From: Sulfuricurvum sp. 17-40-25 | GTDB taxonomy: Bacteria > Campylobacterota > Campylobacteria > Campylobacterales > Sulfurimonadaceae | Assembly: GCA_002282015.1 (NCBI GenBank) | Contig: NCIJ01000006.1 | Span: 1-64,000, forward strand | Direction: 5' to 3' | Length of the DNA: 64,000 nt | The notes under the pieces: generated by a model | The model's database searches: none | What the model was told of the DNA's origin: nothing | The model's input: only the letters and a program-made list of their open reading frames with translations | Shown here: one piece after another, positions 18,353 to 23,767 of the stretch | Position numbering within the stretch: the first letter of the stretch is position 1 | Layout of the letters: each line of letters starts with the position of its first letter | Position numbers and translations under genes: made by a program

Positions 18353-19021
18353 TTAAATCAGAGCGTCATGCCACGCAACGAGGGATAAGCGAAATCCTTT
18401 GGTAACAGGAAGGACTTCATGTGAAAAATAGGGATTACTTAAAAATACGATCATATCACCAGCCTTTGGCTGTACCGTAATCATCTCACCGTTTTCATCG
18501 AACAAATAATTGAATACAAGCTCTCCCCCCTCGAACGTATCATTGACGAAGAGAACCGTGGAAAGCTTGCGTTCAGGGGCAGATGAGACATAGCCAATGG
18601 TCTGTCCCTCACGATCACGTAGTTCGCTGGAATCATCTGCATGTCTTACGTAAAATCCTCCCTCATTGTAGCCCAGTACCTGCAGGGGAGTTGAACGTGT
18701 TAGTGAAAGAGAGAAAAACGTTTCAATCTCACTGCGAAGGGCATCAAAACGGGCTTGATATAAAGAATGATATTCGGGGGGTAACGTGTAAAGATCCGTC
18801 TTACGTATCTGTGAGTTTACATCACCTCCCCGCAGGGAAGCGGTATGTTTATCCTGTTGACTCTGAACATAAGAAGTTATGGAACTACACTCATCGAAAT
18901 CCAGAACACCTCGAATAAGCATAAAGGGAAGATCATGATAAGGGTTAGGAAGACGTTTGGTGGGAATATCCCACCTCAGCAGATCATCGTGTGCGTAAAC
19001 GTAGTTACTGATTTGATGCAT
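18353..19021 (-). CDS. 2-oxoglutarate/Fe(II)-dependent dioxygenase
   Basis: 222 residues, prolyl 4-hydroxylase-like fold. The iron ligands are visible: His127 and Asp129 (YVRHADD) and His201 (FSHEVLP), with Arg211 (GFRLSLVAWHD) as the 2-oxoglutarate anchor. The LSTVLFVNDTFEGGELVF and GDMIVFLSNPYFSHEV segments are typical. No signal peptide. It is the last gene of the manB-to-exbD run, 6 bases after exbD. PKHD-type hydroxylases near TonB/Exb systems have been linked with iron uptake; its substrate here is unknown. Confidence 0.85.
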   Translation of the reverse strand: MHQISNYVYAHDDLLRWDIPTKRLPNPYHDLPFMLIRGVLDFDECSSITSYVQSQQDKHTASLRGGDVNSQIRKTDLYTLPPEYHSLYQARFDALRSEIETFFSLSLTRSTPLQVLGYNEGGFYVRHADDSSELRDREGQTIGYVSSAPERKLSTVLFVNDTFEGGELVFNYLFDENGEMITVQPKAGDMIVFLSNPYFSHEVLPVTKGFRLSLVAWHDALI

Positions 19022-19027
19022 TACTAT

Positions 19028-19411
19028 TTATTGCTTATCCGTTACAATATAAAGCTGTTCATGTCCTAGACGCTTGAGCACATCCATGACCCCTACAAAG
19101 TTTTGGAATGCTGCATCTTTGTCACTGTAAAGAACGACGGTCATCTCATGGCCTCCCGCAACTACCTTTTGTTCAAACTGCTCCAGACTCACTGGCTCTT
19201 TATCGTCTAGCCATAAGCTACCGTCTTTTTTAATGGTCAGCTTGAGTTCACTTGGCTTATGTTCAGCAGCAGACCCTTTTGCTTCGGGTAAATCCACAGG
19301 AATAAGACCCGTTTTGACAAAGGTCGCTGTCGTCAGCACCATTACCAATAAAACCAGCATAATATCGATAAACGGGATAACGTTAATCGAATCGATACGT
19401 TTCATTTTCAT
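19028..19411 (-). CDS. exbD: ExbD-family energy transducer subunit
   Basis: 127 residues. One membrane helix near 11-32 contains the essential acidic residue Asp16 (VIPFIDIMLVLLVMV). The periplasmic C-terminal domain (about 45-127) follows. With ExbB it forms a proton-driven motor in the inner membrane that energises TonB or a similar outer-membrane transporter. The gene is 3 bases after exbB. No tonB or receptor gene lies in the window, so the partner is encoded elsewhere. Confidence 0.9.
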   Translation of the reverse strand: MKMKRIDSINVIPFIDIMLVLLVMVLTTATFVKTGLIPVDLPEAKGSAAEHKPSELKLTIKKDGSLWLDDKEPVSLEQFEQKVVAGGHEMTVVLYSDKDAAFQNFVGVMDVLKRLGHEQLYIVTDKQ

Positions 19412-19414
19412 AGT

Positions 19415-19867
19415 TTAAGCTCTTTTTTTATGGGAGGCAATTTCCCATTGGGTTAGAAGACGTTCGATTTTACGCAACAATATATTGTAAAAAACAATCG
19501 CAGGAATAGCAACAACAAGCCCAAGCGCTGTTGCTTTGAGTGCCAATGCAAGACCTGTCATAATTTTTTTCGGATCAACAGCACCCATATCTCCCAGTGA
19601 ATAAAACGTGATCATAATCCCGATAACTGTCCCTAGCAATCCGACATACGGAGCATTTGACCCAATCGTAGCAATGGTGGAAAGATTATCCCCAAGATCG
19701 AGCTCAAGTTCGTCTTTAGTCTCATAATCACTGATACGAACATTACCAAAATACATCATACGCTCAATAAAAAGCCATAAAGAGACAATACTCATCAATA
19801 TCAATATACCCATCACTCCGTAATTGAGTGTCTGCTCTGCTAATTCCAACCAACTGTTATTTTCCAT
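19415..19867 (-). CDS. exbB: ExbB-family proton channel subunit
   Basis: 150 residues, the short form seen in Campylobacterota. There are three membrane segments (about 15-35, 65-90, 105-130), with the MotA/TolQ/ExbB signature APYVGLLGTVIGIMITF and GLALALKATALGLVVAIPAIVFYN. Partner of ExbD. Its start overlaps the end of the histidine kinase gene by 11 bases, so the motor genes appear translationally coupled to the two-component genes upstream. Confidence 0.9.
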   Translation of the reverse strand: MENNSWLELAEQTLNYGVMGILILMSIVSLWLFIERMMYFGNVRISDYETKDELELDLGDNLSTIATIGSNAPYVGLLGTVIGIMITFYSLGDMGAVDPKKIMTGLALALKATALGLVVAIPAIVFYNILLRKIERLLTQWEIASHKKRA

Positions 19868-20738
19868 GTTTTCCTCTGTTTAGTTCAAGTGTGACACATG
19901 TTCCCTCATCTAGCTGTGAGCGAACGTGCAAGCCAATTTTATAGCGGTCGCAATACCGCTTAACAAGACCCAGTCCTATTCCATACCCGGCCATCGTGCT
20001 ATCATTTTGATAATAACGGTCGAAAATACGGACCAGCGTCATCTCATCCATCCCAAATCCCTTATCACAAATAGACAAGGTATCCTCGTATAACGAGATG
20101 GTAATACACGCAGACGGTGGAGAGTATTTTACCCCGTTATCGATCAGATTATCAATCACTTTGGCAAAACCCTTTCGATCAAGTGTAACCTCATACGCCT
20201 CAGCCGTAACTTCCCACTCTACATCAGGATACAGAGGTTTCAAAAAAGCGAGCCGTTCGTCAAGAAGTTCTCCTATCTCGAACGTTTCAATGCTCTCTTG
20301 TTCCATTTGTTTCTTGATTAAATAATCAAGCTCATTATACCGTTCTTTTAGCATCACTGTTGCCATCTCTATACGGTCAAGACGCTTAATGCTTTTTTCG
20401 TCACTGTTCGTTTTACGCAACATCGAGAGATTAGCGGTAATCGTATTGATAGGTAAATTGAGTTCATGGAGGGTTTCTTTTGAAAAGCGGTCTAAATGAT
20501 TAAAATATTCTTTGAGCGGTTCCATGGCTACAATTACAACCACTTTTCCCATTCCGATACCCAACATCAGGGCTAATAATATGATGATACCCCACTGATG
20601 AACCTTTACTACTTCATAGACAATATAAATACTTCCAACTATAATTGCCACACTCATCATATACAAAGTGATCAGTGCAATCTCTACATTACGGAACAAG
20701 TCGGTACCCAAATCCGCGCACGTTAAGTATTTGTGCAC
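19857..20738 (-). CDS. Sensor histidine kinase, compact
   Basis: 293 residues if read from the GTG at 20738; a TTG at 20699 would reduce the overlap with the regulator gene from 50 to 11 bases and is equally possible. Two membrane helices (about 16-42 and 49-72) have almost no periplasmic loop, so it may sense within the membrane. The dimerisation helix carries His91 (KETLHELNLPINTI), followed by a degenerate DNxxDNG N box (DNLIDNGVKYSPP) and a G2 box (GYGIGLGLVKRY). It pairs with the response regulator encoded just upstream. Confidence 0.88.
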   Translation of the reverse strand: MHKYLTCADLGTDLFRNVEIALITLYMMSVAIIVGSIYIVYEVVKVHQWGIIILLALMLGIGMGKVVVIVAMEPLKEYFNHLDRFSKETLHELNLPINTITANLSMLRKTNSDEKSIKRLDRIEMATVMLKERYNELDYLIKKQMEQESIETFEIGELLDERLAFLKPLYPDVEWEVTAEAYEVTLDRKGFAKVIDNLIDNGVKYSPPSACITISLYEDTLSICDKGFGMDEMTLVRIFDRYYQNDSTMAGYGIGLGLVKRYCDRYKIGLHVRSQLDEGTCVTLELNRGKHGK

Positions 20739-21354
20739 TACCTATTAAATGTTTGAGTCTATTGATATAAACACGGATAGCTCCCTCGCTCATCATTTCC
20801 GAAGCACTCCACAGCTCTTCGATCATCATCTCTTTGGTAACTACCTCACCTGCGTTACGTATGAATAACGCCATCAATTGATACTCTTTTGGGGTCAGTA
20901 TAATCTCATTGTCATCCACTAAAATTCGTTTACGTGATTCATCCAGTACCAATGATCCTAACGAATGCTGTTGGTTCATCGCTTTCGCCCTGCGTAATAA
21001 CACACCCAATCGCATGATCAACTCTTGAGTCTCAAACGGTTTTTTGAGGTAATCATCTGCTCCGTTTTCATAGGCGGTTGAGAGTGTTTGCATATCGCAG
21101 TGCGAAGTCAGAAACATCGCAGGTGTTTGATCATCAGCCCTACGCAATGAACGCAATAGAGACAAACCATCAAGTAGTGGGACATTCACATCCAGAAGAT
21201 AACCATCAAACTTTTTGACATACGTCGCTTCGAGGGCTTCATTCCCATTGCGACACAAAGTTACTTCGTAGCCTTCTTCTTCGAGAACATCTTGAATCGA
21301 TTCTCCAAAAAGAAGATCATCCTCCAAAAGCAGCAGTTTAATCGACACGCTCAA
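20689..21354 (-). CDS. OmpR-family response regulator
   Basis: 221 residues from a TTG at 21354 (a GTG two codons later is an alternative). Receiver domain with the acidic pocket EDD at 11-13, phospho-acceptor Asp55 (YLLDVNVP) and the conserved Lys in KKPFET. Winged-helix output domain (about 130-221) with [12 protein letters not shown] and INRLKHLIG. Its start overlaps the pyrC stop by 17 bases and its end overlaps the kinase gene. Targets are unknown; the operon it sits in (exbBD and a dioxygenase) is an obvious candidate. Confidence 0.9.
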
Positions 21355-22345
21355 TGGACCATCTTAGAGTTTCACCCGCCATCATAGGTACGACTTCACC
21401 GTACATCTCAGGAACAACAAAATCGCGTTTTGCCAGCACTACTTCTTTGTACTCAGGACAAATACCGTAAATTCTTTGAGCATTGTCACTGACAAATGCT
21501 TGAAGATTATCCAGTGCATTGTGCTGCTCAAAAATCTCACATAATAATTGCAAAGCTATGGGTGCGGTAAAGACCCCTGCCCCACACCCGCACGACTCTT
21601 TTTTATGTTTAGGATGTGGTGCTGAATCGGAGCCAAACATCACTTTTGGATGGGCTGCGAGGGCAGTTTTCAAAAGGGCATCTCTGTCATGCGGACGTTT
21701 GGCTATCGGCTTGCAAAAGAGATGCGGACGTAACATCCCCCCTGCCACATCATCAAGCGTAATCATCAAATGGTGTACAGTGATCGTAGCGTACAGGTTT
21801 TCATAGCGATCAAGCATCTCAACCGCTTCACGAGTCGTGATATGTTCCATAATGATTTTAAGTTTCGGAAAATTACTGGCAAGCATCTCATAGACACTCA
21901 TAAACTCCGCTTCGCGATCCATCACAAATCCCATCGTCTCACCATGTACGCACAAAACTATCCCCAAATCCGACATTGCCTCTAATGTCTCACGCATCGG
22001 CTCAATGTCAAAGTTGACTACACCCCCCTCAGAGTTCGTCGTTGCACCACTGGGATAAATCTTAACTGCCGTAATATGGTCACGTGCACTTTCTAAAAAT
22101 TCACGACTGTAGTGTTGATAAAAAAGAGTCATATACGGTTCAAAATCATCCCCTTCCATAGCCTCTTTAATACGATGCCAATACGCTTTTACCGCCTCAA
22201 TTGTTGTTACAGGAGGAACAAGATTGGGCATTACAATCGCCCCGCTGAAACTGTAGGAGGTTAGCGGTGCTACGATTTTAAGCATATCTTCATCACGAAG
22301 ATGGAGGTGCATATCCAATGGCATCATTAAAGAAAGTGTTTGCAT
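21338..22345 (-). CDS. pyrC: Dihydroorotase (class II)
   Basis: 335 residues. The metal-binding HLHLR (His13, His15) near the start, the carbamylated lysine region [12 protein letters not shown], the substrate and metal histidines further on and the catalytic Asp in FGSDSAPH are all present. It closes N-carbamoyl-aspartate to dihydroorotate in pyrimidine synthesis, in the cytoplasm. It lies 4 bases after manB and overlaps the response regulator gene, so a housekeeping enzyme here sits inside a signalling operon. Confidence 0.95.
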
Positions 22346-22349
22346 AAGG

Positions 22350-23720
22350 CTAGTCCTTGAGTTTATTTTTAGCGTCTAATATCAGTGCATTAAGGGCTGC
22401 TTCATATCGTAGCGCTTCATTTTTATCCGTTGATTCAAAACGGGTCACTAAAACAGGAGTCGTATTGCTCGCACGCACTAAGCCCCATCCCTTATCAAAT
22501 ATCACCCGAACACCATCTACTTGTATAATTTCCACGATTGCAGGAAAATCAACCGGTGGATTTTTGAGTAACTCTTTGAGCTTATCAATCAGTAAAAACT
22601 TTTCGCTCTCAGTGGTTGATACTTTGATTTCTTCGGTTGAAAATACTTGCGGTAGTTTTGCAATCTCGGCATCCAAATCAACCCCTTGTTGTATCAGCTC
22701 CAACATCCGCAACGTAGCATAGATCGCATCGTCGTATCCAAAATAGCGATCCGCGAAAAAGACATGCCCGCTCACTTCGCAGGCTAAATCTGCCCCAACC
22801 TCTTTCATCTTGACTTTTAGATTGGAGTGCCCCGTTTTATACATGATGGCCGTTGCTCCACGTTCACGTAATGTATCGTACATCACTTGCGAACATTTCA
22901 CCTCACCGATAACCGTCGGCTTATCCATTTTTAATGCGAACAAAAGGGCCATAATGTCCCCTTTTATATTGTTTTTATGGGTTAAAACGGCAATACGGTC
23001 AGCATCTCCATCATAGGCAAATGCAATATCTCCCTCTTTTTCTAGGAGTTTTTTAATATCTTCAAGATTATGTTCTTCGCTAGGATCGGGGTGATGGTTT
23101 GGGAAAGTGCCGTCTGGATCCGTATAAATCCCTTTGGTATTAAGTTCAAGCTTGTTAAAAATATCTTCTATAGCCAATCCGGCAACACCATTACCGCAGT
23201 CGTATACAATACGCTGCTTCATCCCTTTTAAATGAGAAAATGCACTGATCATATACTCTTTGTAACGACTCAAAGCATCGATTTCAATAACATTTCGTTC
23301 ACATTTTACAGGGAAAGGCATCGTGTCGATCTTACGTCCAAGAGCATAGATCGATTCACCGAAAAAAGGAGATTTATTAATGGTAATTTTGAAGCCGTTG
23401 TATTCGCTAGGGTTGTGAGAACCTGTTATCATAACAGAAGCGCATGCAGTAAGACCGTCAAAAGAGTGGTAGTTACAAAAGTAGTTGACAGGTGTGAGCA
23501 CCATACCCATACACAATACCGTCATCCCTCCAGCATTCAAACCTGCTGTAAGGTACTCAAATAAAATCGGAGAGTGACTTCGGGCATCGTATCCGACAGC
23601 CACAACAGTACCAAAAGGCTTTATCTCTTGCGCCAATGCCTCGCCCAATCGGGTGATGGTCGCTTCATTTAGCTCTTGTTCAAAAATGCCTCGAATATCG
23701 TATTCTCGATAAATGCTCAT
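22350..23720 (-). CDS. manB: Phosphomannomutase/phosphoglucomutase
   Basis: 456 residues, alpha-D-phosphohexomutase family. The phosphoserine loop is [12 protein letters not shown], the metal loop [10 protein letters not shown], the sugar-binding loop CEVSGHVFF and the phosphate-binding loop [11 protein letters not shown]. It interconverts hexose 6-phosphate and 1-phosphate for polysaccharide and LPS precursors; the AlgC-like type often acts on both mannose and glucose. First gene of the run that continues through pyrC to the dioxygenase gene. Confidence 0.92.
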
Positions 23721-23767
23721 AGTTTTCCCATCAAAGTCAAAGATGGAGAAATTATAGCGTGAGGTTT

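Follow-up and report, generated by a model that had tools for sequence, protein, structure and literature searches.

Kinases of the CusRS/CopRS copper systems have a periplasmic metal-binding domain, and those of BceRS and GraRS have two transmembrane helices with a tiny loop. Intramembrane-sensing kinases are defined by two transmembrane helices, a loop under about 25 residues and no other sensor domain. Here we analyzed a 64,000-nucleotide window (C38:1-64000, the whole stretch of DNA under study) of the 2.3 Mb genome of Sulfuricurvum sp. 17-40-25, which encodes a response regulator (RR) and a histidine kinase (HK) in one gene run with exbB and exbD. For copper uptake, the copper ligands of the Pseudomonas receptor OprC are given as CxxxM and HxM in part of PMC8610252, which also states that the TonB used by OprC in P. 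aeruginosa is unknown; P. aeruginosa OprC is reported to be under CueR in an excerpt of PMC7558416. According to excerpts of PMC12914433, the operons of the copper receptor CrtA (BfrG) combine a TonB-dependent receptor (TBDR) and a PepSY_TM gene, sometimes with ExbBD/TonB, and more than 40% of them carry cruR.

From sequence comparisons, we consider that this RR-HK pair is probably a copper-acquisition two-component system of Campylobacterota, with exbB-exbD as its TonB energiser. This reading follows from the linkage of RR-HK to exbBD, TonB-like genes, OprC-type receptors, NosL and NosZ, from the co-occurrence of kinase and receptor, and from an OmpR-type tandem repeat in the promoters concerned. 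The receptor shares its fold and its CxxxM-HxM ligands with OprC/NosA of Pseudomonas but is linked here to a two-component system and ExbBD/TonB. The RR is OmpR-type, as in CusRS/CopRS; unlike in those systems, the kinase has no periplasmic sensor domain or metal ligands, and the linked genes serve uptake, not efflux. The parts are each of a known kind; a literature search of open-licence full texts turned up no account of their combination or of its regulon. The features of the window are the following.

22350..23720, minus strand: manB/pgm-type phosphohexomutase, first gene of the run (Pfam PGM_PMM I-IV)
21338..22345, minus strand: pyrC dihydroorotase (pyrC_dimer), a frequent RR-HK neighbour (TIGR00856, 384.6 bits against a cut-off of 292.95; synteny)
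20689..21348, minus strand: OmpR-family RR, likely GTG start at 21348 (Response_reg and Trans_reg_C)
19857..20699, minus strand: intramembrane-type HK, likely TTG start at 20699 (two transmembrane helices, short loop, no HAMP, HELNLP motif)
19415..19867, minus strand: ExbB of the exbB2 type, with an 11-nt overlap with the kinase end (TIGR02805, 171.9 bits against a cut-off of 135.35)
19028..19411, minus strand: ExbD (PF02472 above cut-off; TIGR02804, 113 against 123.45, just under cut-off)
18353..19021, minus strand: Fe(II)/2-oxoglutarate dioxygenase with a prolyl-hydroxylase fold (2OG-FeII_Oxy_3, PF13640)
23721..23767, minus strand: gap of 47 bp between amt and manB, with a TATAAT-like box and without the tandem repeat described below

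The seven genes lie in the order given by the original prediction (manB-pyrC-RR-HK-exbB-exbD-dioxygenase), all on the minus strand, and each matches its expected family; the short gaps it described are also there (manB/pyrC 4 bp, exbB/exbD 3 bp, exbD/dioxygenase 6 bp). Overlaps are present as well, but the reported figure of 50 bases is an artefact of choosing a far-upstream GTG as the kinase start. Most kinase homologues in the alignment begin at or near M-F-R-N, which is TTG 20699 here, and the profile match starts there too. With the start sites inferred in this way, there are likely three overlaps of 11 nt each, at pyrC/RR (with GTG 21348), RR/HK and HK/exbB. ExbB passed the TIGR02805 test for a type 2 TonB energiser, and the type 2 assignment of ExbD was not reached with TIGR02804, PF02472 being satisfied. 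The gene manB is probably a passenger in the run.

Comparison of gene neighbourhoods, which had been proposed along with the gene run, gave pyrC-RR-HK-exbB-exbD as the conserved core in relatives of several families, making the gene run more than chance. Among the named loci (the best 80 of 572 from a kinase profile search), of which those of Sulfuricurvum are closest to the window, exbB stands directly after HK in 71. In one more, Arcobacter EP1, exbB-exbD and a TonB-like gene stand directly before RR, and 8 of the 80 show no exbBD beside RR-HK, some of them being cut by a contig end. The order pyrC-RR-HK-exbB-exbD was kept in 17/20 loci selected from ExbB matches.

Outside the window's family, RR-HK adjoins TonB-like genes, an OprC/NosA-type receptor, NosL or NosZ, in differing orders. 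TonB was verified by Pfam in L203, L195 and L053 and is TonB-like by BLAST or by eye in the remaining loci.

RR-HK-exbB-exbD-TonB-receptor: L203
RR-HK-TonB-receptor: L195, L244, L246 and L247, and L245 with NosZ next
RR-HK-receptor: L242 and L243
exbB-exbD-TonB-RR-HK: L137
RR-HK-exbB-exbD-TonB near an ABC permease and NosL: L199
pyrC-RR-HK-exbB-exbD-TonB-NosL-ABC: L053, L129 and L135
receptor, exbBD and a TonB-like gene without RR-HK: L050, L239 and L240

The OprC/NosA identity of the receptor was predicted from the NosL linkage and then tested. The window itself holds no TonB or receptor, as had been noted, and the 6 receptor and 3 TonB_C matches of the genome all lie outside it. The genome was found to have a copper-type receptor at C38:79030-81025, which is 15 kb beyond the window and ~58 kb from the kinase. 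TonB-copper is its best named family and OprC its best PDB match, and C99 and M103 (CxxxM, in the plug) as well as H297 and M299 (HxM, in the barrel) are invariant in four aligned receptors, in columns that match OprC 6fok. A lone TonB at C39:65143-65820 is the best TonB candidate and is similar (31%, 82 bits) to the TonB that adjoins pyrC in relatives; the partner is not settled, as a second ExbB-ExbD set at C39:77 kb has another TonB beside it.

In the Sulfurovum-like TonBs of L129 (9936-10727) and L135 (10676-11512), a CxCGC cysteine cluster, possibly a metal site, was seen not far after the membrane helix. The TonB of L053 (7284-8099) gave only a weak Pfam metallothionein match.

To compare kinase and receptor across 397 genomes of the class, the kinase was called clear at E ≤ 1e-66 and absent at E > 1e-58 or with no match, and the 20 genomes in between, 12 of them with the receptor, were set aside. 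The receptor profile matched in 125/144 clear-kinase genomes and in 2/233 kinase-absent ones; the Fisher value for this co-occurrence is tiny, but the genomes share ancestry. Adjacency of kinase and receptor is support independent of the co-occurrence. The gap between them is at most 1.74 kb in 8/14 genomes, with two at 98 and 222 bp, although the 14 were chosen for having kinase and receptor near each other on one contig and 8/14 is not a general rate. The association with NosZ is weaker (127 NosZ genomes, with a clear kinase in 74 and the receptor in 68), and NosZ had no match in this genome. Nitrous oxide (N2O) reduction through NosZ as the sole purpose was rejected, given that there is none here and that 59/127 NosZ genomes are without the receptor. 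Hence, copper supply in general is a likelier purpose than N2O reduction alone.

A tandem repeat, TTAACA(C)-N4-(G/T)TAACA(C) with an 11-bp period, or a close variant, was present in 24/24 receptor upstream regions examined, the window's family having 49 genomes with a receptor; the search pattern matched 23 of the 24, and the short form is TTAACAC-N4-KTAACAC. A weight matrix was built from those receptor promoters, with the 99% level of random windows as its threshold. It scored above threshold at 54/68 receptor records, which include duplicates (19/29 unique non-training genes, counted by eye), and before TonB in 6/21 records (4 unique genes), before NosL in 2/12 and before manB in 6/59, all of the latter in sister Sulfuricurvum-type loci. 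Not one of the control genes reached the threshold (groEL 42, gyrA 12, glnK 28, amt 21), nor did any DUF475 (12), pyrC (85), HK (127), exbD (109), NosZ (13), ABC permease (8) or dioxygenase (13) record. A TATAAT-like hexamer (5 or 6 matches) lies 7 bp after the repeat in 25/43 unique promoters, the next best offset accounting for 5, and this register is that of a PhoB-like activator near -35. When sites of the short pattern were counted in 200 genomes, the pattern outnumbered its reversed control in the clear-kinase genomes alone (182 vs 74 sites in 43 genomes), the counts being 90 vs 144 where the kinase is absent (143 genomes) and 26 vs 38 where it is doubtful (14 genomes).

Two further features were noticed by eye around these promoters. 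In several of L259-L278, a small open reading frame (ORF) for a membrane protein seems to run divergently from the copper receptor gene, which would give the two a common promoter region. In the stretch from the repeat to manB, there is a short hairpin that is seemingly kept despite changes in the letters of its stem, and another TATAAT-like box comes after it (L037 12838-12960, L067 5766-5976, L069 5852-5975, L070 5853-5977 and L071 1441-1725).

The genome of the window contains seven repeat sites vs two for the control. Four are well placed and oriented, before the copper receptor, a TBDR-PepSY_TM pair, an HMA metallochaperone gene (divergent from that of a DsbD_2 protein) and a ResB gene, and five of the seven stand beside copper or oxidase/cytochrome genes. 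From four other kinase genomes, 20 sites were retrieved, and for 9 of them the neighbouring gene is a receptor gene, exbB, NosL, RR itself or a gene that we take to be PCuAC-like.

The recognition-helix stretch of the RR, RVYINRLK, is well conserved, with RVY and K at at least 90% and the residues between at at least 60% in 121 rows, and RVY[IV]..[LI]K was found in none of the other OmpR-type regulators that could be read in this genome (12, with one more left out as mis-extracted). The family cztR_silR_copR is among the closest named ones; the RR lies under the TIGR01387 cut-off (140.1 vs 279.2), and an assignment to CusRS/CopRS was not reached.

The sensor was originally described as having almost no periplasmic domain, which agrees with a model of two helices with 5 residues between them, the second running straight into the phosphoacceptor domain (predicted template-modelling score 0.51), and with the averaged hydropathy of 117 kinases, which dips over ~10 residues. 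These 117 remained from 129 matches after 7 were dropped (motif not found in frame) and 5 of the other 122 proved too short. No column of the N-terminal part of these kinases has H, C or M above 25%, and a conserved metal ligand in the helices was rejected for want of such a column. With two transmembrane helices, a tiny loop and no other sensor domain, the kinase has the intramembrane-sensing architecture. The lack of a metal-ligand column and the tiny loop place it outside the CusS/CopS-type copper sensors, and it would need a membrane signal or a partner. The genes found most often next to it, exbBD, encode a candidate partner. The kinase helices might rest against ExbB/ExbD and report the work of the TonB motor on the copper receptor, with transport activity as the signal, although we regard this as doubtful. 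Such a motor-reading kinase would be a proton-motor counterpart of BceS-BceAB. It would share with BceRS-BceAB and GraRS-VraFG the pairing of a kinase with a transport machine, the difference being that the candidate partner here is the proton-driven ExbBD motor and not an ABC transporter.

In the mechanism that we propose, the phosphorylated RR would bind TTAACAC-N4-KTAACAC near -35 and activate the receptor gene, in this genome C38:79030-81025, probably under copper shortage. Copper would then pass through the receptor, driven by ExbBD together with a TonB from another locus, for which C39:65143-65820 is the best candidate, and would serve oxidases and, in other genera, also N2O reductase. 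The dioxygenase would be a genus-level passenger or extra. If true, bacteria with oxidases and N2O reductase, which are important in sulfur and nitrogen cycling, would have a defined regulon for copper limitation. A single lineage provides candidates for the energiser and the regulator as well as a site of 18 bp, and it has culturable relatives, e.g., Sulfuricurvum and Sulfurimonas.

Several observations weigh against the copper-acquisition reading. The co-occurrence follows families, and the genomes are not independent; the receptor profile had no match in 3/10 Sulfuricurvum genomes that keep the operon, and receptor and kinase lie apart in this genome and in most co-occurring genomes. The receptor is under the curated TIGR01778 cut-off (203.4 vs 472.45 bits) though this is its best family, so that we do not file it there and use only the provisional label "OprC-type". 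In a family where RR-HK has no exbBD beside it, one locus has a PilZ-domain neighbour. The matrix was above threshold before only 5/110 exbB and 5/134 RR records (3 unique RR genes), so repeat control of these genes is indicated in a few lineages only; operon-internal genes would not be expected to carry a repeat of their own. In the window operon, no repeat site with up to 2 mismatches was found, and self-control, which was not seen, was rejected. As the amt-manB gap is 47-48 bp in the window's sub-clade (window, L036, L066, L074) vs 123-285 bp in sister loci, most of which carry the repeat, self-control seems to have been lost in this sub-clade.

The sites themselves add to these difficulties. 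Those before sco1-coxA and ccoN in this genome are intergenic but point away from the gene, and another lies inside a prepilin-like gene. The remaining 11/20 sites from the four kinase genomes lie by other genes, e.g., metH and a flagellin-like gene. The TBDR-PepSY_TM pair has the composition of the CrtA (BfrG) operons, and its putative copper link comes only from this resemblance; unlike CrtA, its TBDR has TonB-siderophor as best NCBIfam family, under cut-off, and its cargo is unsettled.

At L189, L190 and L198, which belong to one family, a protein of ~370-383 residues follows RR-HK instead of exbBD, with pyrC also present in L189 and L190. The PilZ domain in the L190 protein suggests another output of the same kinase.

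The original prediction had counted the dioxygenase as part of the run and had named separation of exbBD and the dioxygenase from the two-component genes as what would speak against it. For exbBD, such separation occurs only in some relatives; for the dioxygenase it is what we found, as the gene is at the locus only in Sulfuricurvum-type genomes. It follows exbD in 10/80 named loci, each assigned to Sulfuricurvum by its title or its close match to the window. The dioxygenase is missing from the locus in L102, which bears the title Sulfuricurvum but resembles Sulfurimonas in sequence (44%), and L074 has lost it and kept exbBD. Orthologues occur in 58/397 genomes of the class, 10 genus members and 48 others. 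The gene lies within about 1 kb of the kinase in 10/10 genus members, which is the spacing of exbB plus exbD, and it was within 100 kb of the best kinase match on the same contig in 0/41 non-genus genomes with both positions known (of the 48, 41 were compared by eye, 6 have no clear kinase match and one, G044, was left out). No common theme emerged among the neighbours of 19 readable copies (20 fetched). Near the kinase in the genus and not linked to it elsewhere where both positions are known, the dioxygenase is, judging by this distribution, a genus-level addition, either a passenger or an extra.

The enzyme looks intact by its sequence, as H127, D129, H201 and R211 (HxD...H plus Arg) are invariant in 24/24 aligned dioxygenases. 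Its model (predicted local distance difference test 93.8) has the P. putida P4H-EF-Tu structure 4iw3 as closest solved fold (template-modelling score 0.64), with PiuC 9qn0 at 0.60, and the fold search returned prolyl-hydroxylase folds that indicated no substrate. An assignment as PiuC/PKHD hydroxylase was not reached with the four NCBIfam PRK05467 models (36.3 vs 143 at best). It is thus like the Pseudomonas P4H/PiuC dioxygenases in its fold and its HxD...H plus Arg, and unlike them in staying under the curated PRK05467 cut-offs.

Other explanations of the locus were considered. The kinase could sense the state of oxidases or electron transport (quinone, redox or proton-motive force), with copper genes as targets because oxidases need copper. 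Such a respiratory regulon is possible, if rather unlikely: this genome has sites beside ccoN, sco1-coxA and a ResB gene, and the N-terminal part of the kinase is free of any prominent H/C/M column, but across families the copper receptor is where sites are found most often, in some cases along with TonB, exbB and NosL, and those at ccoN and sco1 are reverse-oriented. That a different regulator binds the repeat, RR-HK being merely near these genes, appears unlikely to us. Repeat enrichment tracks the kinase, the repeat stands before RR or an RR-containing run in several lineages, and the well-conserved recognition-helix stretch is unique among the 13 readable OmpR-type regulators of the genome, even if the window operon lacks the repeat and some matches precede respiratory genes in kinase-absent genomes. 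The gene run could also be one of housekeeping genes without a functional link, manB and pyrC being ordinary metabolism genes and gene order being able to persist passively; the association of RR-HK with the TonB system in varied orders, also without pyrC, leaves this with hardly any probability.

ExbBD often serves siderophore receptors, and the iron-linked control first proposed for this locus would make RR-HK an iron-uptake two-component system whose operon includes an iron enzyme. A site before the TonB-siderophor-type TBDR (under cut-off) and PiuC among the fold matches of the dioxygenase fit this idea. It is nevertheless very unlikely, as OprC-type receptor, NosL, NosZ, HMA and SCO1 genes are prominent among the linked or target genes and linkage of the dioxygenase is confined to the genus; the linked receptor, chaperones and oxidases speak for copper. 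Iron control that includes the dioxygenase was rejected on the distribution of that gene, no scan for Fur boxes having been made. From the earlier proposal, a dedicated sensor and an ExbBD motor linked to the outer membrane are retained, without the iron theme and without the dioxygenase. The dioxygenase might still work within a copper system, e.g., by acting on a proline in TonB, in ExbD or in some other co-regulated protein, as its place close to the kinase in all genus members sampled and its intact catalytic residues would allow. With 48 of its 58 carrier genomes outside the genus, unrelated neighbours where these were looked at, and its loss from L074 beside a kept exbBD, we find this quite improbable.

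Two minor observations concern the gene run in relatives. A conserved single-helix protein of ~80 residues is encoded on the opposite strand after exbD in L038-L047 (except L041 and L046) and in many Sulfurimonas loci, and was not seen beside exbD in the window. At L074 (7192-8728), an insertion between RR and HK breaks their overlap, with HK, exbB and exbD following and the dioxygenase gone; its ORFs resemble what is presumably a ParE/RelE-type toxin pair.

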